From Magnetococcales bacterium (lineage in GTDB: Bacteria > Pseudomonadota > Magnetococcia > Magnetococcales > UBA8363), in assembly GCA_015232865.1 (NCBI GenBank), contig JADFYU010000018.1, positions 1 through 45,548 on the forward strand: a DNA stretch of 45,548 nucleotides, in the 5' to 3' direction. The notes under the pieces are model-generated. The model did not search any database. It was not told the DNA's origin and saw only the letters and a program-made list of their open reading frames with translations. Shown piece by piece: positions 24,475 to 45,330 of the stretch. Position numbers and translations under genes: made by a program. Every line of letters begins with the position of its first letter. The stretch's first letter is position 1.

Positions 24475-24810
24475 ATGGCCTCAAGTATTGGAAAAGCCAA
24501 GATCCGGGTTCCAAAAAAAGTAAAAATCGGTGACGTTATCGAAGTAAAAGCCCTGATTCGTCACCCCATGGAGACCGGCCTGAGAAAAGACAAAAAAACC
24601 GGTCAAAAAGTGCCAGCCCATTTCATCGATACCGTATCGGCGACCTTCAATGGAGAGACGGTCTTGCACTCCACCTGGGGAGCAGCCATCTCACAAGACC
24701 CCATGATCGGTTTTCACCTGAAGGTGGATGGTTCCGGCCCGCTGGTCATCACCTGGAAGGATAACAAGGGCGGCGTCTATACATCAACCAGCCAGGTCAT
24801 GGCTGAATAG
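24475..24810 (+). CDS. soxZ: SoxZ, sulfur carrier partner subunit
   Basis: A 111-residue immunoglobulin-like protein that forms the SoxYZ heterodimer. Family blocks are KIRVPKKVKIGDVIEVKALIRHPMETGLRKD and FNGETVLHSTWGAAISQDPMIGFHLKV, ending in SQVMAE. It has no signal peptide, as expected, since it is exported bound to SoxY through the Tat pathway. It is 10 bp before soxA. Confidence 0.95.
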   Translation: MASSIGKAKIRVPKKVKIGDVIEVKALIRHPMETGLRKDKKTGQKVPAHFIDTVSATFNGETVLHSTWGAAISQDPMIGFHLKVDGSGPLVITWKDNKGGVYTSTSQVMAE

Positions 24811-24820
24811 GAGAGTTACA

Positions 24821-25714
24821 ATGAAGCGGAAAAACTACCGACTTTACGGGGCCATCCTGGGAGCTGTGGCCATCGCTGTGGCCGCCGGACCGGGTGAAGC
24901 GTTGGAGCTTAACGGGTATGACTCAACCCTGGATCAGGGACTCTACAAATATTCGCCCCGTTTTCGGGAAATGGCGGAGTTTCCTCCCACGGAGGGGTTG
25001 ATTGACGAAGGACAGGATCTCTTTAAAAAAGACCGGGACGGCAAATCCTGTGAAACCTGTCACGGTGAGGACGGCGAACGGTTGGTCGGTGCGGCGACCG
25101 GCTATCCCAAATACAACCCTAAATTGGGCAAACCCCAATTGATTCAACAGAAAATCAATGAATGCCTGACCGAACAGATGGGCCAAGCTCCACTGAAAGA
25201 TGAGAGTTCGGAACAGATCCTTCTGATTACCTATGTCAAAGCCCTCTCCAACGGCATGCCGTTGGCCGTTCAAACCGATGGTCCCATGGCCCCATTTTTA
25301 AAAGCCGGGAAAGAGTCTTATTTTACCCGGATCGGCCACTTTGACGTCTCCTGCTCTAGTTGTCATCACAATGCCGCCGGTGCAAACATCCGGGCAGAAT
25401 ATCTCAGCACCACCGATAATACCGGTCAGAGCAAGTTCAATGAATTGGTCGTCCAGGCCATGGCGCAAAAAAATGAGCAGGATCAGCGTAATATGGCTGG
25501 CGGAACCATCGGCTCCGGCTCCATTGACCATTGGCCGACCTACCGGCTGAAATGGGGACAGGTCGCCACCATGCAACGACGTCTGAAGACCTGCAACAAA
25601 AATGTTCGGGCGCAACCGAAAGCATCCGGGGATGACTATTATGTCAATCTGGAACTTTATCTGGCTTCCATTTCCAACGGATTGCCCATGAACGTACCGG
25701 GAATCCGGCCATAA
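24821..25714 (+). CDS. soxA: SoxA, dihaem cytochrome subunit
   Basis: A 297-residue exported cytochrome, the catalytic subunit of SoxAX that couples thiosulfate oxidatively to SoxY. The signal peptide is about 28 residues. Two haem-binding motifs are present, CETCH (77-81) and CSSCH (178-182), so this is the dihaem type of SoxA. The active-site cysteine that is persulfidated in characterised SoxA is expected at C258 (RLKTCNKNVRAQP). Start ATG 24821 follows GGAGAGTTACA; a longer frame that begins inside soxZ is rejected. Confidence 0.95.
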   Translation: MKRKNYRLYGAILGAVAIAVAAGPGEALELNGYDSTLDQGLYKYSPRFREMAEFPPTEGLIDEGQDLFKKDRDGKSCETCHGEDGERLVGAATGYPKYNPKLGKPQLIQQKINECLTEQMGQAPLKDESSEQILLITYVKALSNGMPLAVQTDGPMAPFLKAGKESYFTRIGHFDVSCSSCHHNAAGANIRAEYLSTTDNTGQSKFNELVVQAMAQKNEQDQRNMAGGTIGSGSIDHWPTYRLKWGQVATMQRRLKTCNKNVRAQPKASGDDYYVNLELYLASISNGLPMNVPGIRP

Positions 25715-25816
25715 CACCCATTATCCTAGATTGGGCAGTTGTAAGTGCGTAAGCGGTGCAACATATTGGTTTATCTGGTGAACTAGAAAAAATTGCGTTG
25801 TGAAAGAGAATTTAAC

Positions 25817-27511
25817 ATGAATCTAAACCGTAGAGAGCTATTGGAAATGGGGCTTTTATCGGCGGCGGCTTTTGTGGCCGGACCGGGAATCAGTCTGGGA
25901 CAGGCCGCCAATCGAGCCTCGGCCCAAGATCTGCTTCGCTTCCCGGATACCGGCAAGCTGACCCTGCTCCATTTTGCCGATTGTCATGCCCAACTGCTGC
26001 CGGTCTATTTTCGCGAACCCGATACCAATCTTGGCGTCGGAGCGGCGATTGGCCAACCGCCACACCTGACCAACCAAGCCTTTTTGTCCCACTTTGGCAT
26101 AGCGGACGGCTCTCCTGAAGCGTACGCTTTTTCGGCACCGGACTATATAAAACTGGCCCATGAATTTGGTGCCGTCGGTGGCATGGCCCATATGGCAACG
26201 GTGGTCAAACATGTCCGAGACCAACGGGGAGCCGACAATGTTTTGCTGTTGGACAGCGGCGACACCTGGCAGGGTAGTTATACGTCCATGGTAACCGAAG
26301 GGGACGATATGATCCAGGTGGCCAACCTGCTGGGGGTCGATGCCATGACCGCCCACTGGGAGTTCACCTATGGGGCTGAAAAGGTCAAGGAGAATATAGA
26401 AAAACTCAATTTTTCCTTTCTCGCTCACAACGTCAAGGATTCCGAATGGGAAGAGCCGGTATTCAAACCCCATGAAATTTTTGAAAAAGGCGGCGCCAAA
26501 GTTGCGGTGATCGGCCAGGTTTTTCCCTACACCCCCATTGCCAACCCGCGTCGATTGATTCCGAACTGGTCCATGGGCATCCAGGAAAAATCGGTGCAGG
26601 AGCAGGTCGATGAGGTTCGATCCCAAGGGGCGACGGTTGTGGTTCTGCTCTCTCATAACGGTATGGATGTCGATCTGAAATTGGCCTCACGAGTCAGCGG
26701 AATCGACGTCATTCTGGGAGGACACACCCATGACGCCATCCCCCACCCGACCCAGGTGCACAATTCCGGGGGTATCACCCTGGTCTGCAACTCCGGCTCC
26801 AATGGCAAATTTTTAAGCCGCATGGATCTGGATGTCGATCAATCCGGCCTGCGAAGCTGGCAATATAGACTGATTCCCATCCTCTCACAGATCATTCCGC
26901 CTGATGCGGAAATGGCTGCCCTGATTGAAAAAATACGCCGACCCCACGAGGCGGAATTGAACCGGGTTATCGGCCATAATGAATCACTCCTCTATCGGCG
27001 GGGCAGTTTTAACGGCACCTTTGACGACCTGATTTGTCAAGCGTTGACCACTCAGATGGATGCTGAGATTTCCCTGTCGCCGGGATTTCGCTGGGGAACC
27101 TCTCTCCTACCCGGTCAACCGGTCACCATGGAGGCCATCTACAACCAGACGGCCATCACCTATCCCAACATCTATCGACGGACCATGACCGGTCAACAGA
27201 TCAAAGTGATTTTGGAGGATGTGGCAGACAACCTCTTCAATCCAGACCCCTATCGGCAACAGGGGGGAGACATGGTCCGGGTGGGAGGTATGCGTTATGC
27301 CATACGGATCAACGCGCCCATCGGCCAACGTCTGCAACAGATCGAGGTGGGCGGCAAACCCCTGGAGCTTGGTAAAGAGTATGTGGTCAGTGGTTGGGCC
27401 TCCATGGGAGAGGTGGAAGGACCACCGGTGTGGGAGGTTGTCAAAGATTATGTCGGCCAACAACAGGTGATCCGAATCAATCCCGGCCATACCTTGAAAG
27501 GAGTTTCATGA
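25817..27511 (+). CDS. soxB: SoxB, sulfate thiohydrolase
   Basis: A 564-residue periplasmic dimanganese hydrolase that releases sulfate from the SoxY-bound sulfone. The N-terminus NRRELLEMGLL is a Tat signal. The metallophosphatase domain has LLHFADCHAQL (D55, H57), DSGDTWQGS near residue 155, LSHNGMDVD and GGHTHDAIPHP near residue 300. A 5'-nucleotidase C-terminal domain follows (NGTFDDLICQALTTQMDAEISL...AITYPNIYRRTMTG). It lies 102 bp after soxA and its stop overlaps the start of the DUF302 gene. Confidence 0.96.
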   Translation: MNLNRRELLEMGLLSAAAFVAGPGISLGQAANRASAQDLLRFPDTGKLTLLHFADCHAQLLPVYFREPDTNLGVGAAIGQPPHLTNQAFLSHFGIADGSPEAYAFSAPDYIKLAHEFGAVGGMAHMATVVKHVRDQRGADNVLLLDSGDTWQGSYTSMVTEGDDMIQVANLLGVDAMTAHWEFTYGAEKVKENIEKLNFSFLAHNVKDSEWEEPVFKPHEIFEKGGAKVAVIGQVFPYTPIANPRRLIPNWSMGIQEKSVQEQVDEVRSQGATVVVLLSHNGMDVDLKLASRVSGIDVILGGHTHDAIPHPTQVHNSGGITLVCNSGSNGKFLSRMDLDVDQSGLRSWQYRLIPILSQIIPPDAEMAALIEKIRRPHEAELNRVIGHNESLLYRRGSFNGTFDDLICQALTTQMDAEISLSPGFRWGTSLLPGQPVTMEAIYNQTAITYPNIYRRTMTGQQIKVILEDVADNLFNPDPYRQQGGDMVRVGGMRYAIRINAPIGQRLQQIEVGGKPLELGKEYVVSGWASMGEVEGPPVWEVVKDYVGQQQVIRINPGHTLKGVS

Positions 27512-28065
27512 TGAAAACCATACGATGGGTGGTGTTGATGGCTGGCTTGCTCTTGACCCCCATTTTCTCTTCTCACGCGCAGGAAGCTCCGAAGGGCTAT
27601 GAAATCACAGCTTCAGAAGCCCGCTTGAACGCGTTACCAGGGGTGCGTCATCACGGTCCGGTTTTGGAAATCCCTCTGTTGGAAGGGGCCTCTTTTGACG
27701 ATCTGGTCATGACCTTGGAGGGGGAGATGCCGGAAGCCAACCTGAATATTGTCGCCCGACAGGATATGGGCAATGCCATTACCGCTCGAACGGGCATCCC
27801 CATGCCTCGGTATGTCATTTTCAATATTTGCAATCTGGAGGTGGGCCGCAAGATCATCACCGTCGAACCGGCTTTTGGAGCCTTTATGCCGTGTAAGGTG
27901 GTCTTATACGAAGAGTCCATGGACGGACGGGTCTGGGCGATTACCTATAAACCTGCTTTTGCCATCCCCTACTTTCCCAACCTGCCCCAAGAGGCGTTGG
28001 ATGCCGCCAGAGAGGTAGGAGACAAAATGTTTGATATCCTCTTCCTGATGGCGACGGAGGGATAG
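27511..28065 (+). CDS. DUF302-domain exported protein
   Basis: A 184-residue protein with a signal peptide ending near SSHAQ. The DUF302 domain has SFDDLVMTLEGEMPEANLNIVARQDMGNAI, then YVIFNICNLEVGRKIITVEPAFGAFMPCKVVLYE and VWAITYKPAFA. DUF302 proteins are frequently found with sulfur-metabolism and cytochrome genes, but their biochemical role is not established. Two conserved cysteines (CN and PCK) are present. ATGATG at 27508-27513 offers two starts; the second leaves better spacing after AAAGGAG and overlaps the soxB stop by one base. Confidence 0.8.
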   Translation: MKTIRWVVLMAGLLLTPIFSSHAQEAPKGYEITASEARLNALPGVRHHGPVLEIPLLEGASFDDLVMTLEGEMPEANLNIVARQDMGNAITARTGIPMPRYVIFNICNLEVGRKIITVEPAFGAFMPCKVVLYEESMDGRVWAITYKPAFAIPYFPNLPQEALDAAREVGDKMFDILFLMATEG

Positions 28066-28126
28066 CAAAATTCTGGTTCAATACACTCTTTTGAACCTAT
28101 AACAGTGGATCAATCAGGAGTTGAAC

Positions 28127-28660
28127 ATGCGTAGATTTTGGATGGCTTTGGTAACGGCTTGCGCTCTATTTTCCTTGCACGGAACCGCTCAGGCTCTGAT
28201 GAACGAACCCTTCTTTGAAGACTCCTTTCTAAACTTCAAAGAGGATGCCGAGTCGGCAGCGGATCAGGGAAAAATTCTCATGGTCTTTTATGAGCAGGAG
28301 GGCTGCCCCTATTGCACCGAACTGCACCAGAAAACCCTGAAAGATCCAGCGGTATTGGATTATATGGAGCAGCATTTCTATCCGATTCTGGTCGATATCT
28401 TTGGTGCCCGTGAAGCCATGGGATTCGATGGCGCGCCAACCCGAGAAAAAGCCCTCTCCCGAGCCCAACGGGTCCACTACACCCCCACGGTCGTCTTCTA
28501 TGGTCCCAGTGGAGTCGAGCTGTTTCGTCTGGCCGGATTCTGGAAACCGTTTCACTTTTTGGCCAGCATGGAATATGTCTTCGAAGATCATCACCACAAA
28601 ATGAACTTTCAAGATTTTATCCGAGCAAAAATCAATGCTGAAAAATCCGAGAAAAAATAG
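28127..28660 (+). CDS. soxW: SoxW-like periplasmic thioredoxin
   Basis: A 177-residue exported thioredoxin-fold protein with the active site CPYC at 60-63 after LMVFYEQEGC. The following TELHQKTLKDPAVLDYMEQHFYPILVDIFG and the cis-Pro region VHYTPTVVFYGPSGVELFRLAGF are as in SoxW and related thioredoxins. It probably keeps a Sox component reduced, for example the SoxY cysteine. The ATG at 28127 follows AGGAGTTGAAC. The gene symbol is assigned on context and fold. Confidence 0.8.
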   Translation: MRRFWMALVTACALFSLHGTAQALMNEPFFEDSFLNFKEDAESAADQGKILMVFYEQEGCPYCTELHQKTLKDPAVLDYMEQHFYPILVDIFGAREAMGFDGAPTREKALSRAQRVHYTPTVVFYGPSGVELFRLAGFWKPFHFLASMEYVFEDHHHKMNFQDFIRAKINAEKSEKK

Positions 28661-33202: not shown

Positions 33203-35674
33203 ATGATCTCTTTACCTCCGACATCACAGATCACCTCTTCTGTGCACTCCCACTCCAATGCACCGCAAATGGATGGAGTGATTGTCGTCAACTCTTCCGG
33301 AACCATAATCTCGATCAACAATTCTGCTCAGCACCTCCTTCAGTATCACACCGTTGATCTATTGATTGGTCAGGATGTCAGCCCGTTGTGTTGCGTCTCA
33401 GATCTGGAAGAGTATAAAACCTGGGCTTCGGTCTATCCAGAAATCGATGGACTGACTCTCATCAATTTATTGCGAACAAATCCTCATATCGAGATAAAAA
33501 CCTGTTTAAAGACCGCCAAAAAAACCGTCGAACCGGTGCGGATCTCCGCCATACAACTGAATCTGAATAATCAGCCAACTTTTTTCATCCTCTCCCTCAA
33601 AGAGATGCGGGAGAAGACGCTTTCAGCGTCGAAGGCAAAGCTTCAATCTCAGTTTAAAAATATTTTCAACGCTCTTTTGCAAACCTCATTTTATGATCTC
33701 TCTATTTTGGGCAATCCCCTCCAAGAGAACCTTAAACTGGCTTTGAGCATTATTCTTTCGGCCCCTCTATTACCCAAACAGCCTTCCGGGGCCATTTTTC
33801 TGGTCAATCGAGATGAAAAAAGTGTGCAACTGGCCTGTCAATTGGGTCTCTCCAGCGAAAGCGAACAGAGCTATGCCAACTGTTGGATGGAGCAGTATGA
33901 TTTTGGCCAGATCTTGAACACAAAACGGGTCCATTTTTCATCCGAGTTAACCGATCATTATTCTGACTTTTGCCCGCAAGCGACCATAACCCCTCACTAT
34001 CTGGTTCCCATCATGCGTGAAGAGGGACGGGTTTTGGGCGTGCTGATGGTTTTTCTGGATTATGACTGGGTCAGACATCCGGAATTAGAGCGGTTTTTAA
34101 GTGAAGTTGTCATGGTCCTGGCTATGGCAATCAGTCGGAAATATTTTGAGAACAAGCTGTTGAACTCCGAAAGTCAGTTCAGTTCCATTGCCAACACCTC
34201 CAATGACGGCATCATCTCCATCAACCAAGAGGGAAAGATCGGCTTTTCCAACCAATCGGCAAACCGAATTTTTCAGTACGAAGAGGGAGAACTTCTCGGA
34301 CAACCGCTGACGCGGATTATTCCCAGCCGTTACCATTCAGCCCATAAAGCCGGTATTAAAAATGCGTTAAAGACCGGCAAAATCAGCATTCCCGGAAAAA
34401 TTATCGAGTTTCTTGGCCTGCGGAAAGATGGTCTTGAGGTTCCTGTTGAAATCTCTCTATCCATGTGGGAGAGCAATCAGCAAACAACCGTCGCCGCTTC
34501 CATTCGAGATATTTCCGAGCGAAAAAGAATGGAAGAGACCCTCAAACTACAATTGACCTCCATGAAATATGCGGCCAACAGTATTCTCATTACTGATTCT
34601 GAGGGCAACATAGAGTGGGTCAATCCGGCTTTTGAAAAACTAACTGGCTTTACCTTTGATGAGGTTGTGGGCCGCAATGCCAATATTCTCAACTCCGGTC
34701 TCAATGACCCCGCCGTTTTTGTTGAGCTTTGGCGGACCATAAAGTCGGGAAAAATATGGCAAGGACATCTTCAAAACAAAAAAAAATCGGGCGAACTTTT
34801 TTGGGAAGAGGAGACCATTACCCCTATTTTGGATCAGAACAATATCATCAGCCATTTTTTAGCCATCAAGGTCGATATTACGGCTCAAAGAGAGATTGAC
34901 GAAACACTTTGGCGGGCTAAAATCGCCCTTGAAGATTCTAATGATCGATTGGAAAAGGCCAACGCGCAACTATTGGAAGAACGAAGCATCATCGAAAATA
35001 TTGTCTACAATATTCAAAACTCCCCATTATTCGACAGATCCAATCTTCGAATTCTTGAAAAACCCATCGAGAAAACAACCGGGGATCTGATCTGTGCGAC
35101 TCAATTATCCAATGGAGTGCGACGTATTCTATTGGGCGATTTTACTGGCCATGGTTTGACGGCGGCCATCGGTGGCCCGTTGGCTACAGAAATTTTCTAT
35201 GCTGCATCATCTCTTACGATTGCACACATGTTTAGAATTCTCAACGAACGTCTCCTGCACGCCCTCAACAGAGATATGTTCATGGCTTGTAGTTGCGTGG
35301 AGTTGGACATCGATAAAAATCAGGCCACTCTTTTCAATGCGGGGATGGTAAATATTTTTATTCTTCGAGAAGGTAAAACCATACACAAAGAACCCTCAAA
35401 ATATGTCCCGAGGGGTTTGATGGACGTACCGGACTGTGAACCGACCGTTTTCCCCATTCGTCATGGCGATAAAATCATTCTCTGTACGGACGGTTTTGAA
35501 GAGACCACCGACCCCAGTGGCAACATGTTTGGAGAACAACGCTTTTTACCTCTATTGGAAGAGGTCATCGCCAACAACGAACCATTGGAAATTCTCGTTC
35601 AAAAGCTGGCCCTATTTAGACAGGGAAGGAAACAGGAGGATGATATCACGCTGATTGAGTTGACATGCAAATGA
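33203..35674 (+). CDS. Multi-PAS sensor with SpoIIE-type phosphatase
   Basis: An 823-residue cytoplasmic protein. Residues about 23-130 form a PAS-like domain (DGVIVVNSSGTIISINNSAQHLL). Residues about 180-320 look like a GAF domain (YDLSILGNPLQENLKLALSIIL...). Two more PAS domains follow at about 325-445 (ISINQEGKIGFSNQSANRIFQY) and 447-570 (ILITDSEGNIEWVNPAFEKLTGF). After a coiled linker comes a PP2C/SpoIIE phosphatase at about 620-823, with TGDLICATQL, LLGDFTGHGLTAAIG and LCTDGFEETTDPSGNMFGEQRF. Such phosphatases dephosphorylate STAS antagonists, and a STAS gene follows 77 bp downstream. The start is ATG 33203, but it lacks a strong ribosome binding site. Confidence 0.88.
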   Translation: MISLPPTSQITSSVHSHSNAPQMDGVIVVNSSGTIISINNSAQHLLQYHTVDLLIGQDVSPLCCVSDLEEYKTWASVYPEIDGLTLINLLRTNPHIEIKTCLKTAKKTVEPVRISAIQLNLNNQPTFFILSLKEMREKTLSASKAKLQSQFKNIFNALLQTSFYDLSILGNPLQENLKLALSIILSAPLLPKQPSGAIFLVNRDEKSVQLACQLGLSSESEQSYANCWMEQYDFGQILNTKRVHFSSELTDHYSDFCPQATITPHYLVPIMREEGRVLGVLMVFLDYDWVRHPELERFLSEVVMVLAMAISRKYFENKLLNSESQFSSIANTSNDGIISINQEGKIGFSNQSANRIFQYEEGELLGQPLTRIIPSRYHSAHKAGIKNALKTGKISIPGKIIEFLGLRKDGLEVPVEISLSMWESNQQTTVAASIRDISERKRMEETLKLQLTSMKYAANSILITDSEGNIEWVNPAFEKLTGFTFDEVVGRNANILNSGLNDPAVFVELWRTIKSGKIWQGHLQNKKKSGELFWEEETITPILDQNNIISHFLAIKVDITAQREIDETLWRAKIALEDSNDRLEKANAQLLEERSIIENIVYNIQNSPLFDRSNLRILEKPIEKTTGDLICATQLSNGVRRILLGDFTGHGLTAAIGGPLATEIFYAASSLTIAHMFRILNERLLHALNRDMFMACSCVELDIDKNQATLFNAGMVNIFILREGKTIHKEPSKYVPRGLMDVPDCEPTVFPIRHGDKIILCTDGFEETTDPSGNMFGEQRFLPLLEEVIANNEPLEILVQKLALFRQGRKQEDDITLIELTCK

Positions 35675-35751
35675 TTATCTACTAGATTGATTCGGATTTT
35701 CTGATTGATAAATTTTGTTTATTAACTCTGTTTGATCCGAAGAGACATGAA

Positions 35752-36057
35752 ATGGCTGACAGCTCTCTCTCAGTGTCCCGAGAAGGGGATACTTTGATCT
35801 ACCGAATTGCAGGTGTTTTTGACTATTCCCTGGTCAAACTGTTCAAGACCACCTATCAATCCGAAGGAAAAGCGGGCCGTTATGTTTTGGACTTGATGAT
35901 GACGGATAAAATTGACAGTTCCGCAATCGGTGGGTTGATGTATTTTCATCATTTTGCGGGCGGAAAAGAGGCCGACATTACCCTGATCAACGCCAGCAAA
36001 GAGATCAAACGCCTGCTCAACATTGCCCAACTTCACCACGCCTTTAAAATTCTTTGA
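35752..36057 (+). CDS. STAS-domain anti-sigma factor antagonist
   Basis: A 101-residue single STAS domain. It has DTLIYRIAGVFDYSLVKLFKTTYQ, then YVLDLMMTDKIDSSAIGGLMYFHHFAGG, with the expected phosphorylatable Ser in KIDSSAIGGL (about residues 57-58), then ITLINASKEIKRLLNIAQLHHAFKI. It is the likely substrate of the preceding SpoIIE phosphatase and of the HATPase protein encoded convergently. The last 14 bp overlap the end of that gene. Confidence 0.88.
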   Translation: MADSSLSVSREGDTLIYRIAGVFDYSLVKLFKTTYQSEGKAGRYVLDLMMTDKIDSSAIGGLMYFHHFAGGKEADITLINASKEIKRLLNIAQLHHAFKIL

Positions 36058-36967
36058 CTTTGCTGTTTTTCGAACATTTTTGATATACCACGGCAGTCAC
36101 CTGATTGCCACAGCCATGGTATTCCAAACGATCAAAACTTCCCCCTTTAGCCATGGCAATTCCAAATCCATGGCTTTTATGGGTTTCGAACGGGTTCATT
36201 CCCATGTAGTGCTTCCAATCGAACCCCTGGCCTTGATCCTGAATCAAAAATTGAACCTCACTCTCGGTTCTAGTGGCCTGAACGGTAACACATTTCGTGA
36301 TGTTTTCAGGAAGAGCCAAACGACGCTCAACCTCCTCGTCCCAGACATCCTTTTCATTGAGAAGGGTTTTTTCTTCGTAGGTGATTCCCAGGTTGCCATG
36401 TTCGACCGCATTGACAAACAGCTCTCTTAATCCGAACACCCGCTTTTCAGGTTCTGGACAGAGCAAGGCCAGAAGATCGGCGATTTTACGGGCATCTTCC
36501 AGGGTTCTAAAACGGAAGGTCGAATGGTGCATCATCAGGAGAGAATCGTCAAACAGACGGATTTTTTCTCTGAATTTTTCTTGCGCCGCATGGTTGGACA
36601 ACCAACGCTCCATGGAGGGAACCAAAGAGGTCAGGTTCTCTCTCAACACCACATCACTGACACCGCAATTCAAAAGTTTGACTGCATCTTCTCGATCAAT
36701 GGCTTCCGTAACGAGAATGATCGGAATTCCATCCCCCTCCTCTTTCCAGACAAAATAGATATCTGAGCCATAAAAAAAATCGTGCTTGCAATTGGCAATG
36801 ATCAAGTCCCAATGCCGAATATCCAACGCTTCACTCATGGCCGACGCCGTATTGACATGAAAGCATTTGATATCGAAGCTACAACGGTGTAGCTCGTTGC
36901 GAATATTTAAAAAATTATCAGGAGCACACTCAATGACCAGGATGTAGAAAACCTCTTTTGCAATCAT
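36044..36967 (-). CDS. Pseudo-receiver fused to RsbW-type HATPase
   Basis: A 307-residue protein. Residues 1-125 resemble a response-regulator receiver, but the phospho-acceptor Asp is Asn (DLIIANCKHDFF), the acidic pair is Glu-Cys in ILVIECAPDN, and the conserved Lys is Arg (VVLREN). It therefore probably does not accept phosphate. Residues about 155-300 are an anti-sigma-type HATPase with FGLRELFVNAVEHGNLGI (N box), QFLIQDQGQGFDW and SHGFGIAMAKGG. The kinase half would phosphorylate a STAS partner, most simply the convergent STAS gene product overlapping it by 14 bp. Confidence 0.8.
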   Translation of the reverse strand: MIAKEVFYILVIECAPDNFLNIRNELHRCSFDIKCFHVNTASAMSEALDIRHWDLIIANCKHDFFYGSDIYFVWKEEGDGIPIILVTEAIDREDAVKLLNCGVSDVVLRENLTSLVPSMERWLSNHAAQEKFREKIRLFDDSLLMMHHSTFRFRTLEDARKIADLLALLCPEPEKRVFGLRELFVNAVEHGNLGITYEEKTLLNEKDVWDEEVERRLALPENITKCVTVQATRTESEVQFLIQDQGQGFDWKHYMGMNPFETHKSHGFGIAMAKGGSFDRLEYHGCGNQVTAVVYQKCSKNSKVKEF

Positions 36968-38886: not shown

Positions 38887-39687
38887 TCAGTTACGCCGTG
38901 GCCAGGCACTTGCATCCACCGTTTCCAGGTAAGCATGCCAGGTGGCGTGACCGAGTACCGGGAATATCACCACCAGCCCCAACAGCCCGGTTATCACCGA
39001 GACAAGCACACCGCCGAGGATTGTCGCCGCCCAGAGAAGTGACACCTTGCGATTGCGCAACACAGCGTTGATGCTGGTAACAACTGCCGTGAGCAGATCG
39101 GTCTTGCGTTCCATGATCATGGGCAACGAATATGCGCTGATACAGAAGGTGATCATCGCAAACACACCTCCCACCACGGTCCCGATGCCGAAAAAGAAGA
39201 TCAGGTCCACCGGCTCACTGTCAAACCCGCCGGCCGCGAAGATCATTTGCAGCAGATGCCCGACGTGAATCCAGAACAAAAAAAGGATGATGAGAACGCT
39301 GGAAAACAGCGCCAGGTTACCGATCCCCCCCGATTTGTCACGCAGACAGTAAGTTAATAGCGGCTCCCGTCCGGTTTTCAGCTGACAACTGAGGGAGTAG
39401 AGACCGATGGCCATCACCGGGCCGATCAGGGTCAGGCCGGAAAGGATGGTCAAAAACACCAAAGGCCCGCTGATGACGAATCCGGCATAGCCAGCGACGT
39501 AACACATCAGCAACGCTACCAAGCCATAGACAAGGCTTTTTTTACGGGTGCGTTTCAGATCGGCCATGCCCAGTCGCAGCCAACGTTTCGGTGCCTCCAT
39601 GTCCAACTCACGACAAGGCGCGACTAAGGGCAAGGGCTTGGCATCGTCCACCGGATTTTGTGCCTCCTCGTCGATTTGTTCTGACAT
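38887..39687 (-). CDS. DUF2189 integral membrane protein
   Basis: A 266-residue protein with an N-terminal soluble stretch of about 50 residues, then six hydrophobic segments. The beginning LGMADLKRTRKKSLVYGLVALLM and the LLGLVVIFPVLGHATWHAYLETV near the C-terminus are characteristic of DUF2189. Its function is unknown. Its start ATG 39687 is 212 bp from the hybrid kinase stop, and it is probably a separate unit. Confidence 0.8.
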   Translation of the reverse strand: MSEQIDEEAQNPVDDAKPLPLVAPCRELDMEAPKRWLRLGMADLKRTRKKSLVYGLVALLMCYVAGYAGFVISGPLVFLTILSGLTLIGPVMAIGLYSLSCQLKTGREPLLTYCLRDKSGGIGNLALFSSVLIILFLFWIHVGHLLQMIFAAGGFDSEPVDLIFFFGIGTVVGGVFAMITFCISAYSLPMIMERKTDLLTAVVTSINAVLRNRKVSLLWAATILGGVLVSVITGLLGLVVIFPVLGHATWHAYLETVDASAWPRRN

Positions 39688-39899: not shown

Positions 39900-41789
39900 C
39901 TACACAATCAATTCCCGAACCTTTTGCACGGCCTTTTCAGCTTCGTCCTTGATCATCCGAACGTATTCGTCGGCACGGGAGGTCATCTCGGCGGGACCAA
40001 ATTTTTCCAATGTTTCAGCCAGTATCGCCACGCGCGTAACGCCTAATTGGCGGCTGGATATCTTCAGTTCAGAAGCGGCCTTGGTCATGACGTCCGTATT
40101 CCCACCATTGACCACCGCGCGCTGCAAGGCATTCACGCGTTCCGACAGAGCCATGAGGTAGAGACGTCCCACGGTTTGAAAGTTCTCCCGCAAATCCTCC
40201 TGGAGTTCTTTGATGACCGTCTGGTCCAGAACTGAAAAATCGGACAAAACCGGCATGGTCCGGCAAGGTTTCCTTTGGTTGTTGTTGCCGCCGAGCCAAT
40301 GGTGAAGCGAGCGGCGCAGCTCTTCCACACGGAGCGGCTTGCTGAGAAAATCATCCATTCCCGCCGAAAGGCAGGCTTCACGGCTCTCATCCATGACGTT
40401 GGCGGTCAAGGCGATCACTTTTGTGTAATGGAGACTCTTATCTGCCTTCTCTCTATCACGCAATCTCTTGATGGCGGTGATACCGTCCATCCCGGGCATT
40501 TGAACATCCATAAAGACCAGATCATAGTCGGTCTCAGCGATCTTCAGTAACGCCTCCCCACCGGTGCAGGCCAGGTTCGGACTAAGCCCCATACGCTTGA
40601 GAATTTTCAGCATGACCAGCTGATTGATCGGGTCGTCCTCCACCAGAAGAATGCGGCTCTCTGGAGGAAGGCGTTTCGGCAGATGCGATTCTCGATCGGT
40701 GAGGTGGGAAGAGACCGATCCTTGCAAGCTTCCTGGTTCGTTCGTCATGAATTCTGCATCGACGGAGGGAAACGGCGCCGTAAAGGAGAAGGCGCTTCCC
40801 TCTCCTTCCAGGCTATCCACCCAGATGCGCCCGCCCATGACTTTGAGCAATTTTTGGGAGATGGCCAGCCCCAAGCCCGTGCCTCCATAGGCCCGTTGGG
40901 CAGAGGAGTCGATCTGGACGAAGGAGTCGAAGATCAGATGTTTCTTCTCCTCCGGGATACCGATGCCGGTATCCCGGACAGAGAATTTGAGTCCTTCACG
41001 ATCCCCTTTCGTGTCGATGCCGAGAACCACTTCAATTTTTCCGAACTCGGTGAACTTGATCGCATTGCCGATCAAATTGATCAATATTTGCCGAATGCGC
41101 CGATGATCGCCTCTCACCAAGAATGGCACATGAGGGTCAATCGTCAGGATCAAGTTCAGCCCTTTTTGCGTTTCCGTCGGATGCCGCATGATTCCGTATA
41201 CGCTTTGCAGGAGGTCACGAGGGGAGAAGACCTCCTCTTCAATCGCCACCTCTCCCGCTTCGATCCTCGCCAGATCAAGGATGTCGTTGATGAGCGTGAT
41301 GAGGGCGTGGCCGGACTCCTTGATGATGCTGACCGCCTCTTCTCTCTCCTCCTTGGTGCCCTCGCTGTCGATCATGTCCGCCATGCCGATAATGGCGTTC
41401 ATGGGAGTGCGGATTTCGTGGCTCATGGTGGCCAGAAAGGCGCTTTTAGCGACATTGGCCGCTTCAGCCGCCTCTTTGGCCGCATTGAGGATCTGAATAT
41501 GCTCTTCCCGTGCCGCCACATGCTTTCGGAAGGCCAGCCCGTAGGCCATCAGAAGTTCCATGAGGGGTGGAGAGACCAGAAGGGGGATCTGTTGTAAGGT
41601 GGGCGCGTTGTCCAACCGCGCCAGTTCGGTCAATGCGCGTTCTTGAACATCCGCAATCTCTTCCGGCGGAACGCCCTCACTGACCATGCGCCGTCCCAGG
41701 TCGGCAGCCTCGGCCAGATGGACCTCTTGGGGGTCGGCGACGTACTGCAGAAGCAGCCGAAGATATTGATCACTGAAGGTTTCGTTCAT
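39900..41789 (-). CDS. Hybrid histidine kinase with RsbU_N-like N-terminus
   Basis: A 629-residue cytoplasmic kinase; the start is ATG 41789 ([10 protein letters not shown]). Residues 1-85 ([45 protein letters not shown]...) resemble the N-terminal RsbT-binding domain of RsbU. HisKA follows with [18 protein letters not shown], then HATPase ([40 protein letters not shown]). A receiver follows, with [11 protein letters not shown] and [12 protein letters not shown]. The last 110 residues have the fold pattern of an Hpt domain, but the phospho-acceptor His is replaced: [13 protein letters not shown] has Ser (codon TCT, 40071-40073) where AAHxLKGSS is expected. It lies at the end of the rsb operon, 147 bp after the RsbX-like gene. 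Confidence 0.88.
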
Positions 41790-41936
41790 GACGTTCCGGT
41801 CAATAAGGCGATTTGTCCTCTTTGGATGTGCAATTCTGCTGCACCTGTCAACCAGGACCGGCAAAACCAAGAAACTCGTTCAGCCACTGGACGGCCTCTT
41901 TCCGGTCCCGTCAATCCAGCGTCGCAACATGAGGGG

Positions 41937-42572
41937 TCAGTCTCCATTAGAGCCATCTTCCTCGGGTTGGAGATCCGCATCGAACCGGTATAGTAGGATT
42001 CCTGTATCGTCGTGTCTGCGACTCCAATCCTCCAAAATCTGTATTCCCAGTCTCTTGAGATCATCCAAAAGGGGGCGGCGATACGCCAAAATATTCATCC
42101 TCTCCTTGACGCCGTCCGTATGGAGCACCAGAAGATCACCCCGGAGGAAAGGGATGGTTTCGGGTCGGACACGCCTGTACCCACCACCCACAATCCCAGG
42201 ATCGCTTGAGAAGCGGTTGGCACTCCTGTTGCTCCTGAGAATAAGCATGCTGATGTTACCCACCCCCGCGAAGGTGACTGTTTCCGCCTGTGGATCGAAG
42301 ATGGCAATCCCCATGGCAACCCCCCGCGTATTCCGAATGTGCTGGTTGCACCCATCGAAGAGTTTCTCCAATGGGCTGTCAAGCCCATTTTCCACGAACT
42401 CCCGCGCGCTCAGAGCGGCGGCTTCCGCCTCCTTGCCATGCCCCAACCCGTCGGCGGCAAAAAAAAAGTGTCGCCCCTTCTCTTGCCAATGGGCCAGTTG
42501 ATCCCCACAAAAAGGCCCCTGGCTGTTTGCCGGATGCGTGATTATGACAGCGGTCACAGCCTCTTTCTCCAT
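41937..42572 (-). CDS. rsbX: RsbX-like SpoIIE/PP2C phosphatase
   Basis: A 211-residue phosphatase domain. Metal-binding Asp residues are in FFAADGLGHGKEAEAAA and VLHTDGVKERM, with GVAMGIAIFDPQAETVTFAGVGN in between, as in RsbX and the C-terminal halves of stressosome-linked ATPase-phosphatases. It should dephosphorylate RsbS and RsbR to reset the stressosome. Its ATG at 42572 lies inside the end of the preceding ATPase gene (19-bp overlap, another frame), so translation is probably coupled. Confidence 0.82.
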   Translation of the reverse strand: MEKEAVTAVIITHPANSQGPFCGDQLAHWQEKGRHFFFAADGLGHGKEAEAAALSAREFVENGLDSPLEKLFDGCNQHIRNTRGVAMGIAIFDPQAETVTFAGVGNISMLILRSNRSANRFSSDPGIVGGGYRRVRPETIPFLRGDLLVLHTDGVKERMNILAYRRPLLDDLKRLGIQILEDWSRRHDDTGILLYRFDADLQPEEDGSNGD

Positions 42573-43012
42573 TTGTAGGCAATAATTCGGGAACCATGCC
42601 CCGGAGTGGAGAAGATCTCGAAAGCGTCAGCGAGCCGCTTCACACCAGGTAGTCCACACCCCATGCTTCCAGTCGTGGAAAAGTGATCCTGCATGGCTTT
42701 CTCCATGTCGGGAATGCCGGGACCCGTATCTTCGGCGACAACCTCAATTCCCATTTTTCCATCCTTGCGAAGGGGAGTCAATCGAATGAATCCACCGTGG
42801 GTCGCATGCCAGAATTGATTGGCCGCCAATTCAGAAACGATGGTGCCCAACGCGTGGACTTCCGCCTCTTTGAATCCGACTTGCCGAGCCAGGGCCATGG
42901 CCCGGGTACGAACGAGGGCTATATGGTACTCCTCGACGACCAGGCAGGTCAATCCGGGAACTGGGGTCGTCTCCCAGTCGTCATCAATGCTCTTCGGGTT
43001 AGAGACATTCAT
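42554..43012 (-). CDS. Second RsbT-like HATPase (serine kinase family)
   Basis: A 152-residue GHKL ATPase. It resembles the adjacent RsbT over its length: ALARQVGFKEAEVHALGTIVSELAANQFWHA (N box), VVAEDTGPGIPDMEKAMQDHFSTTGSMGCGLPGVKRLADAFEIFS. The N box has ANQ in place of RsbT's RN pair, and an extra N-terminal 25 residues are present. In many stressosome operons a domain like this is fused to a SpoIIE phosphatase in one polypeptide; here the two are separate frames with a 19-bp overlap. It starts at ATG 43012, seven bases after the rsbT stop. Confidence 0.82.
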   Translation of the reverse strand: MNVSNPKSIDDDWETTPVPGLTCLVVEEYHIALVRTRAMALARQVGFKEAEVHALGTIVSELAANQFWHATHGGFIRLTPLRKDGKMGIEVVAEDTGPGIPDMEKAMQDHFSTTGSMGCGLPGVKRLADAFEIFSTPGHGSRIIAYKWRKRL

Positions 43013-43019
43013 AAGCAAA

Positions 43020-43427
43020 TCAACGCATTTTGCGCTGCATGCCGATGGAAATCCGCGTATGACCGGGTTCAGAGAAGATATGAAAACTATCCATCAGCCG
43101 GCGCGTTCCTGGAAGGCCTGCCCCCAGTCCACCAGCCGTGGAAAAACCATCCTCCAGAGCCTGCGAAATATCCGAGATTCCGGGACCGTGATCCTCGACG
43201 ACAACCTCCAGGTGGCTGGTTTGATTCTCCTGCCATCCCTTGATGAAGCACTCCCCCCGCACGGCGTGAACAAGAACGTTACGGGTCAACTCGGAAATGG
43301 CCGTGGCCAGGCGAGTCTGTTCAATGGCGCGAAACCCGACTTCCTGAGCGATCTTCCGGCCCTTTTGCCTGGCCAGAATAACGTCGTTACCCTCGACAAT
43401 GTTGACGTGACCCTCCCTTTCGATCAT
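43020..43427 (-). CDS. rsbT: RsbT, stressosome switch kinase
   Basis: A 135-residue GHKL serine/threonine kinase that phosphorylates RsbS and RsbR on stress and then leaves the stressosome to bind its output partner. Motifs are QTRLATAISELTRNVLVHA (N box), VVVEDHGPGISDISQALEDGFSTAGGLGAGLPGTRRLMDSFHIFS and HTRISIGMQRK. The ATGA start overlaps the rsbS stop by 4 bases. Size and order (rsbR-rsbS-rsbT) match the module known from Bacillus and several proteobacteria. Confidence 0.92.
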   Translation of the reverse strand: MIEREGHVNIVEGNDVILARQKGRKIAQEVGFRAIEQTRLATAISELTRNVLVHAVRGECFIKGWQENQTSHLEVVVEDHGPGISDISQALEDGFSTAGGLGAGLPGTRRLMDSFHIFSEPGHTRISIGMQRKMR

Positions 43428-43834
43428 GTCGAGCCGTCCATTTCATCATCGTAATCATCGTCATCATCGATCAGGGCGTTGGATTCCCGGAGGGCTTCCA
43501 GCTTTTCCAGTCCATGATCCAGGTTGAGAGCGGTGTCGACATTCACCAATTCCCGGCCCATCTCCACCAGCGTCAGGGCAACGTAGGGTTGCATTCCGCA
43601 AACCACTGCGTGTGCACCCATCATTTTGACCATGTGGGCGGTTTCGCTCAAGATCCTGGCCATATAGGAGTCTACAGTATCCAAGGAGGTGATATCGATG
43701 ACCACACCCTCAGGCTCTACCTTGGCAATTTTATCCAGAAGATCCTCGCGAAACTGACTGAGATCGTCATCGGTCAGGTCCGTTTGGATTGAGGTCAGAA
43801 GTTGATTCTTGATTTGCAGGATCGAAACTTTCAT
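43424..43834 (-). CDS. rsbS: RsbS, stressosome STAS scaffold protein
   Basis: A 136-residue STAS protein beginning MKVSILQIKNQLLTSIQTDL, as RsbS does (start ATG 43834; an upstream in-frame TTG is less likely). The phosphorylation motif VIDITSLDTVDSYMARIL carries the Ser equivalent to Bacillus Ser59 in DSYMAR. It forms the stressosome core with RsbR and sequesters RsbT. The C-terminus is unusual: LIDDDDDYDDEMDGST, a strongly acidic tail beyond the STAS fold. It starts seven bases after the rsbR stop. Confidence 0.92.
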   Translation of the reverse strand: MKVSILQIKNQLLTSIQTDLTDDDLSQFREDLLDKIAKVEPEGVVIDITSLDTVDSYMARILSETAHMVKMMGAHAVVCGMQPYVALTLVEMGRELVNVDTALNLDHGLEKLEALRESNALIDDDDDYDDEMDGST

Positions 43835-43841
43835 ATGCGGC

Positions 43842-44717
43842 TCACTGCCTCTTGCCAACGCCGACCGTCAGATTGAGTTTTCGGAACGCCTCCTGAACGC
43901 CTGCTCGCAGGGATCCCCTGGTGCGTAGTTCTCCGAGATTAACACCCAGTTTGGTCATGGTCTCGGCGTTGGCGGGACTGATCCCGGTCAGGATCACTTC
44001 AGCACCCAGCATGCTGGAGGCCGTAATGGTCGAAAGAAGATGGCGGGCCACCTGGGTGTCGATGACCGGTACGCCGGTAACGTCGACAATCACGATACGC
44101 GCTTCATTTCCCACGATGGACTCAAGCAGTGTCTCCATGATGTGTTGCGCCCGGGCGGTATCGATGACCCCCACCAGGGGAAGCAGAAGAATCTGCTGCC
44201 ACAATTTGATGATGGGGCTGGAGATCTCCAGCAAACTTTCGGTTTGCGCCTGAATGACCTCTTCCCGCCTCGCGGCGAAAGCCTCGAAAGTGACCAGACC
44301 CAGCCGGTCGATGATCTGGCCGGTTTTGATCACCTCTTGAGTCAATGCCTGGGCATCCTCCCATTCTCCGGTTTGGAGGAGTTCCAGCAGGGTGTCCTTG
44401 AGCGAGAAAATGAAAGTCGCCGTCTCTGACGGGGAAAAACCCTGTTCCGCCCGGGCCACGCTGATCCTTTTGAGCATGGTGATGGCGTTCTCATACCCGA
44501 TCTGTTCCATATCCAGATGATCTTTAAGGGAAAAGACCCCGGACAGAGCGCCCAACAGGTTACCGGCTTCCTGACGAAGCTCTTTCTCCGTCATGAGGAT
44601 CAAGGTTCTGTTTCCCTGCAACCCTTTGATGTTCCTTATCCAAACCTCCAACACCTCATCTTGCCGGTCTCTCATCATTACTGAAGTTATTTTTGATTCT
44701 ACTGTTGGCTTTGTCAT
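43842..44717 (-). CDS. rsbR: RsbR, stressosome sensor protein
   Basis: A 291-residue protein (start ATG 44717 after AGGGGAG). The N-terminal domain, residues 1-150, is all-helical and of RsbRD/globin-like sensor type ([14 protein letters not shown]..., [21 protein letters not shown]). It does not carry an obvious haem proximal histidine that I can assign. The C-terminal STAS domain has [51 protein letters not shown] and [19 protein letters not shown]. These carry the two threonines expected as RsbT sites (in DTQVA and TGISP). It is the first gene of the stressosome operon. Confidence 0.92.
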
Positions 44718-44767
44718 GAGCGACACTCCCCTATCCCCCATTTACGAGGCGCGTTAAATTCCAAGGA

Positions 44768-44797: not shown

Positions 44798-44964
44798 CCA
44801 TGGTAGTTCATCGTCCGGCTTTTGTATAGTCAAATGAATTGCAGAGTCACTGAAAACGTGGACACCAAGTTAACCTTAACGAAACTAAAGTTCAAAACAA
44901 GCGAAAGGATTGAATTTCGCCTCTGTTGAGTTCACGATGTATCCACCAGACAAGGGAGGGTGCC

Positions 44965-45330
44965 ATGAAGATCTTTTCAGACCAATTCAAATCCAATATT
45001 TCTTTTCAATATTCGTGCTTTGATCGCGTAGTGATCCGGGGATACATTCTCAACCTTTTTACTACCGGTGGAATCGTTATTCTCCTTCGAGCCCTTGGCT
45101 TTCATAAGCTTTCGGACGGGATCATGCGCATTTTGACCGACCAACTCAATGCACATATTTGCAAAGAAGCTGAATTCCACAACATCCCCATTCATTGGTG
45201 GCCATCCGTTGACGGCGGAAAGAGTGGGGCCAAGCTGAAGTATGTCACTGATCCACTAGTACAGACTGGCGGGAATAACGCTTTAGATAGAAAGCTATCA
45301 AAGAGATGGCATCGTCCAAAGTTTCGTTAA
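44965..45330 (+). pseudogene. 5' fragment of uncharacterised family, interrupted
   Basis: The frame starts at ATG 44965 after AAGGGAGGGTGCC and begins MKIFSDQFKSNISFQYSCFDRVVIRGYI. It continues GGIVILLRALGFHKLSDGIMRILTDQLNAHI and IPIHWWPSVDGGKSGAKLKYV, which I recall as the start of a much longer (about 500-residue) uncharacterised family. From about 45250 the sequence changes to unrelated residues and stops at 45330. The break coincides with the presumed left end of an IS630-type element, so the gene is disrupted. Confidence 0.55.

Follow-up and report, generated by a model that had tools for sequence, protein, structure and literature searches.

The operon and its six genes

The window analysed here is the whole of a 45,548-nucleotide stretch from a Magnetococcales bacterium (contig JADFYU010000018.1), and the subject of this work is a stressosome operon within it that ends in a hybrid histidine kinase gene. 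An original prediction, made from the sequence alone, had listed rsbR, rsbS and rsbT, then genes for a second ATPase and an RsbX-like phosphatase, and lastly that for the kinase. All six were found, in this order, on the minus strand and with Pfam support. The rsbR gene (43842–44741, with an alternative in-frame ATG at 44717) encodes an RsbRD-type sensor and co-antagonist of 299 residues, which matches RsbRD_N (PF14361, E = 3.4e-20) and STAS (PF01740, E = 4.7e-15). It is followed by rsbS (43424–43858), a STAS antagonist gene (Pfam STAS, E = 5.6e-9) giving 144 residues when read from a TTG that has an in-frame ATG eight codons inside it, and by rsbT (43020–43427), which encodes a switch kinase of 135 residues (HATPase_c_2, E = 4.3e-8). 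Next come a second RsbT-like ATPase of 154 residues (42554–43018; HATPase_c_2, E = 1.2e-10) and an RsbX-like PPM phosphatase of 211 residues (41937–42572; SpoIIE, E = 6.9e-14). The phosphatase gene opens, in a different frame, with an ATG placed so that its first 19 nucleotides are shared with the second ATPase gene. These five genes are tightly packed or overlapping and, with the genes for RsbR, RsbS, RsbT and RsbX all together, the window carries a stressosome RSTX module.

The kinase gene (39900–41789) encodes 629 residues from an ATG at 41789, which lies 147 nucleotides from the phosphatase stop at 41937. An alternative TTG start at 41870 would add 27 residues; the ATG agrees with the starts of the nearest relatives and is residue 1 in the numbering used throughout. 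Scans for promoters and terminators gave counts close to shuffle expectation.

The kinase N-terminus

The original prediction held that the first 85 residues of the kinase resemble RsbU_N, the domain through which RsbT reaches RsbU. Counted from the ATG, PF08673 matches residues 8–86 (41532–41768, minus strand; E = 2.1e-8) and covers profile positions 2–75 of 75, with a score of 34.6 bits against a Pfam gathering cut-off of 25.5. When the kinase was used as a single sequence in a phmmer search of PDB sequences, the solved structures of Bacillus subtilis RsbU were matched directly, with E-values of 4.5e-8 (2j6z), 1.2e-7 (2j70), 2.2e-7 (2j6y) and 4.9e-6 (1w53), and the next-best match stood at E 0.61. 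The match at 4.5e-8 rules out chance similarity. These matches identify the start of the kinase as a genuine RsbU_N domain, in line with the resemblance first noted, and we regard it as the putative docking site of RsbT.

The catalytic and C-terminal domains of the kinase

Behind the RsbU_N domain the kinase carries a HisKA domain at residues 114–179 (41253–41450; PF00512, E = 3.3e-22) with phospho-acceptor His124, a HATPase_c domain at residues 227–341 (40767–41111; PF02518, E = 1.3e-28), and a receiver (REC) domain at residues 380–494 (40308–40652; PF00072, E = 8.9e-26) with phospho-acceptor Asp428. His124 and Asp428 are both present, as are the motifs LIGNA at 239, DTGIG at 273 and GTGLG at 303, which we take to be the N- and G-box motifs. 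In the modelled structure a single helix runs unbroken over residues 68–121, from RsbU_N to three residues before His124.

The last part of the chain, residues 523–629 (39903–40223), was modelled by AlphaFold2 from the single sequence as an Hpt-like four-helix bundle. The mean predicted local distance difference test score (pLDDT) of the model was 80.8, with ten-residue means of 80–96 over the bundle, and the top match was HptB (7c1i). The Pfam Hpt profile PF01627 scored 14.2 bits on the kinase C-terminus, under its cut-off of 24.6 (E 0.053). When the C-terminal domain was searched by itself for relatives, the kinase was the only protein recovered among 354 candidates. A phmmer match of low significance (E 0.24) places Ser573 (codon 40073–40071) opposite the His of the AHSFKG stretch in Pseudomonas aeruginosa HptB, a His that we take to be the phospho-acceptor. 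The Hpt-like domain thus seems, from this alignment, to be without a phospho-acceptor histidine. A complete His-Asp-His (H-D-H) relay within one chain was rejected on the same ground, namely Ser573 at the acceptor position, weak as the alignment is.

Recurrence of RsbU_N beside RsbT-like genes

Occurrence of RsbU_N over the Pfam cut-off was counted in the phyla of five loci, each set including the seed genome, which had itself been chosen for having RsbU_N. The domain was found in 9/398 genomes of the phylum of Magnetovibrio, 5/297 of that of the SeepSRB2 locus and 9/251 of that of the Anaerolineales locus, and in the seed only for the phyla of the Nitrospiraceae locus (1/68) and the Poribacteria locus (1/84). 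Within the Magnetovibrio phylum one class had RsbU_N in 6 of 78 genomes, a set that overlaps the 9/398. A further search gave nine loci with close RsbU_N domains, and a search of viral contigs with RsbT found no relative.

The neighbourhood count started from 40 RsbU_N genes. Genes with less than 2.5 kb upstream and no ATPase were dropped (L008, three in L055, and L056). The 35 genes that remained lie at 31 loci, and 22 of these loci, the window among them, have an ATPase. The short loci L059 and L060 were kept because an ATPase was found there, a choice that favours RsbT control of the kinases; the two are near-copies, and L060 was typed by custom profiles only. At L062 RsbU_N lies under the Pfam cut-off, and L071 falls under the custom profile though Pfam detects RsbU_N there.

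Among the census loci of the Magnetovibrio, SeepSRB2 and Anaerolineales phyla (L048–L072), 15 of the 22 that were assessable (15 of 19 genomes) had an RsbT-like gene no more than ~6 kb away from RsbU_N and on its strand. Genes like rsbS and rsbX were present too at 11 of these 15. An RsbU_N protein had histidine kinase domains at 12 of the 15 (L048, L050–L053, L059, L060, L063–L066 and L068); L049 and L057 had HD output domains, and the output at L070 was not typed. At L063 the kinase gene precedes rsbR. Of the RsbU_N proteins found in relatives, 29 were scanned with Pfam, giving 19 with histidine kinase domains, 6 with GGDEF or HD and 4 with no output domain, these four being short, cut off or pieces. 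Two consecutive RsbU_N genes occur at L005, L048, L050 and L053, and their outputs differ where typed: a GGDEF protein stands beside an HD-domain protein at L005 and beside a hybrid kinase at L053.

These counts bear on the possibility that RsbU_N is a dimerisation domain left from shuffling, so that the kinase stands outside stressosome control and its neighbourhood is incidental. Such an origin would fit the 7 of 22 assessable census loci that have RsbU_N without a nearby RsbT-like gene. Against it, the pairing of the two recurs in several phyla, and a mere 9–24 nucleotides separate the phosphatase stop from the beginning of the RsbU_N match at 13 loci. In the window this distance is 163 nucleotides, larger than in 14 of 16 relatives.

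Contact residues and the probable partner of the kinase

The RsbU residues reported to contact RsbT are E24, Y28, I74, I78 and R91, and the contacting residues of RsbT are R19, R23, N24 and D92 (eLife 2025, PMC12143880). By alignment, the kinase has E22, A26, M77, M81 and R94 at the five RsbU positions. The E24 position is Glu in 34 of 40 aligned RsbU_N domains, the window included, and the linker position R91 is Arg or Lys in 17 of the 40. Retention of E24 and of the linker basic residue in the kinase argues against a domain left from shuffling and loss of Tyr28 speaks for it; taken with the gene order, we consider this origin quite improbable. In B. subtilis, T89A and G92E are among the suppressors of RsbU Y28I (PMC12143880). 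The kinase has Ala at the place of T89 and Glu at that of G92, a pattern that, with Y28 absent, resembles the suppressors of Y28I and is suggestive only.

On the ATPase side, RsbT of the window keeps the equivalents of R19, R23 and D92 and has Lys at N24, and the second ATPase keeps those of R19 and D92 and has Met at R23 and Ala at N24. At the 14 loci with both ATPases, Arg19 with Arg or Lys at 23 is found in 14/14 first ATPases, and residues 19 and 23 are both basic in 5/14 second ATPases; Asp at 92 is found in 4/14 first versus 8/14 second. The evidence from contact residues is mixed and in part weighs against docking of RsbT on the kinase; it leans towards the first ATPase as the partner.

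The opposite assignment, in which the second ATPase docks on RsbU_N of the kinase and RsbT merely cycles on the core, draws on the presence of a second ATPase at 14 of 23 loci with an aligned RsbT-like gene and on its more frequent Asp92, the residue predicted to pair with the linker Arg of RsbU. This Asp is present in 8/8 of the group of second ATPases to which that of the window belongs. We nevertheless regard this assignment as unlikely, given the missing R23 and N24 and the scarcity of the basic pair among second ATPases. Moreover, loci with a single ATPase, such as L052 and L068, also carry RsbU_N kinases, and the overlap or fusion of the second ATPase gene with rsbX hints at a role alongside the phosphatase.

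The second ATPase and RsbX

A pair of RsbT-like genes was found at 14 loci including the window, and a single one at 9 further loci. At 10 of the 14 (the window, L003–L006, L053 and L063–L066) the phosphatase start overlaps the second ATPase stop by 4–19 nucleotides in another frame, and at L001 and L057 the two genes lie apart. At L059 (5964–6965) and L060 (1147–2148) the second ATPase and the RsbX-type phosphatase are one protein, which at L059 combines ATPase and SpoIIE domains in a single 332-residue translation by Pfam. This overlap and fusion suggest that the second ATPase and RsbX are a functional pair.

In a tree of 38 ATPases, the first and second ATPases did not form two clean clades; the second ATPases fell into several separate groups requiring 3 changes. 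Of 200 bootstrap trees, 1% had a branch that set all second ATPases apart from the rest, although the starred branches of the tree are compatible with a single origin of second ATPases. That of the window grouped with seven other second ATPases (8 rows) with support of 94/88, just below the starred level, and six first ATPases and one single ATPase formed a group with support of 98/96. Among the publications listed in literature searches, which covered titles and abstract openings and a minority of subscription papers, none dealt with the second ATPase. It is possible, if rather doubtful, that the R-S-T-ATPase-X arrangement is a device in which the second RsbT paralogue and RsbX would form a kinase–phosphatase reset unit, so that two competing RsbT-type kinases would drive the histidine kinase.

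Proposed mechanism

We think it fairly probable that a stressosome module of the Gram-negative type controls the hybrid histidine kinase through docking of RsbT on RsbU_N. RsbR, with its RsbRD-type input, and RsbS would make the core and hold RsbT. By analogy with the B. subtilis and Vibrio literature, RsbT would phosphorylate the core under stress and be released, and RsbX would reset the core by dephosphorylating it. Free RsbT would then, on the same analogy, dock on the N-terminal RsbU_N dimer of the kinase. Docking could alter autophosphorylation of His124 through the continuous modelled helix by which the end of RsbU_N is connected to the DHp domain, in a direction that is again suggested by the B. 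subtilis and Vibrio work. Because the Hpt-like domain seems to lack its histidine, the phosphate would go to Asp428, to a response regulator or Hpt protein whose gene lies elsewhere, or to both.

A stressosome kinase might instead phosphorylate the histidine kinase on Ser/Thr with no allosteric docking, as has been proposed for downstream kinases (Heinz 2022, PMC9237108). That proposal concerned proteins without RsbU_N, whereas the window kinase has the docking domain, and we hold it to be very improbable here.

The wiring from RsbT through RsbU_N to a histidine kinase, in place of the phosphatase upstream of sigma B, is likely, being supported by sequence, by recurrence of the gene order and by some of the contact residues. 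The original prediction of an RsbT input that could switch a phosphorelay instead of sigma B is supported in part, in respect of this likely wiring; a complete H-D-H relay in the kinase seems improbable on account of Ser573.

Neighbouring genes and host context

A second partner-switching set lies ~3 kb from the kinase at 33203–36967. It comprises a PAS/SpoIIE phosphatase (33203–35674, plus strand), a STAS protein (35752–36057, plus strand) and a receiver-ATPase protein (36044–36967, minus strand). The receiver of the last falls short of the Pfam cut-off, and visual inspection shows Asn at the position of the acceptor Asp. This protein was considered as the cognate regulator of the kinase and rejected for these two reasons, with nothing linking it to the kinase. 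A gene for a DUF2189 membrane protein (38887–39687) follows that of the kinase on its strand, and upstream of rsbR the opposite strand carries a 134-residue open frame (44926–45330) that matches nothing in Pfam at E 0.01.

The host had been called a sulfur oxidiser, which finds partial support in a SoxA/TsdA cytochrome domain (24728–25711) and a protein with a 5'-nucleotidase C-terminal domain (25793–27508), the latter presumably SoxB. Together with a thioredoxin-like protein, the set at 24728–28660 is in keeping with thiosulfate oxidation.

Comparison with known systems

Some alpha-, beta- and gamma-proteobacteria encode, downstream of RsbX, signalling proteins with RsbU_N-like N-termini, suggesting that they are RsbT targets, and phosphorelays with HisKA and REC are among the stressosome outputs; the majority of proteins downstream of RsbX are without RsbU_N (PMC9237108). 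Histidine kinases with RsbU_N have also been noted as examples (PMC12143880). The joining of a stressosome to two-component signalling is supported here as likely wiring, but its link between RsbU_N and histidine kinases is already in print and the main idea is not new. What is new is the non-globin sensor, the recurrent second ATPase whose gene overlaps or is fused to rsbX, and the Hpt-like domain with a serine. The locus adds evidence for RsbU_N as a portable RsbT socket and, with the docking domain adjoining the DHp helix, offers a convenient system for asking whether RsbT switches a histidine kinase as it does RsbU.

The published proteobacterial loci resemble the window in having RSTX genes followed by an RsbU_N signalling protein, with HisKA/REC outputs (PMC9237108, PMC12143880). 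The survey in PMC9237108 began from globin-type RsbR, whereas the window has an RsbRD_N sensor, a second ATPase and an Hpt-like end seemingly without histidine. In Vibrio vulnificus the RSTX genes stand beside those of a two-component sensor kinase (VvD1/VvD2), as in the window, and deleting the stressosome genes or the adjacent sensor kinase has similar phenotypic effects (PMC10014275), which speaks for control of the kinase by the stressosome. Unlike the window kinase, VvD1 had no detected RsbU_N (PMC9237108). RsbU_N also joins a stressosome to a non-sigma output in the stressosome-controlled diguanylate cyclase MtG of Moorella thermoacetica, where the output is GGDEF instead (cited in PMC12143880).

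Tripartite kinases of the TorS/ArcB type share with the window kinase the order HisKA, HATPase and REC followed by an Hpt-like fold, and the NCBIfam TorS model matches residues 102–620 at 393 bits, under its cut-off of 676.5. The window kinase differs from them in Ser573 at the Hpt acceptor position and in its N-terminus. That N-terminus, RsbU_N with a helical linker, is of the kind found in B. subtilis RsbU, whose output domain, a PPM phosphatase, has RsbV as its substrate, whereas the output in the window is a histidine kinase.
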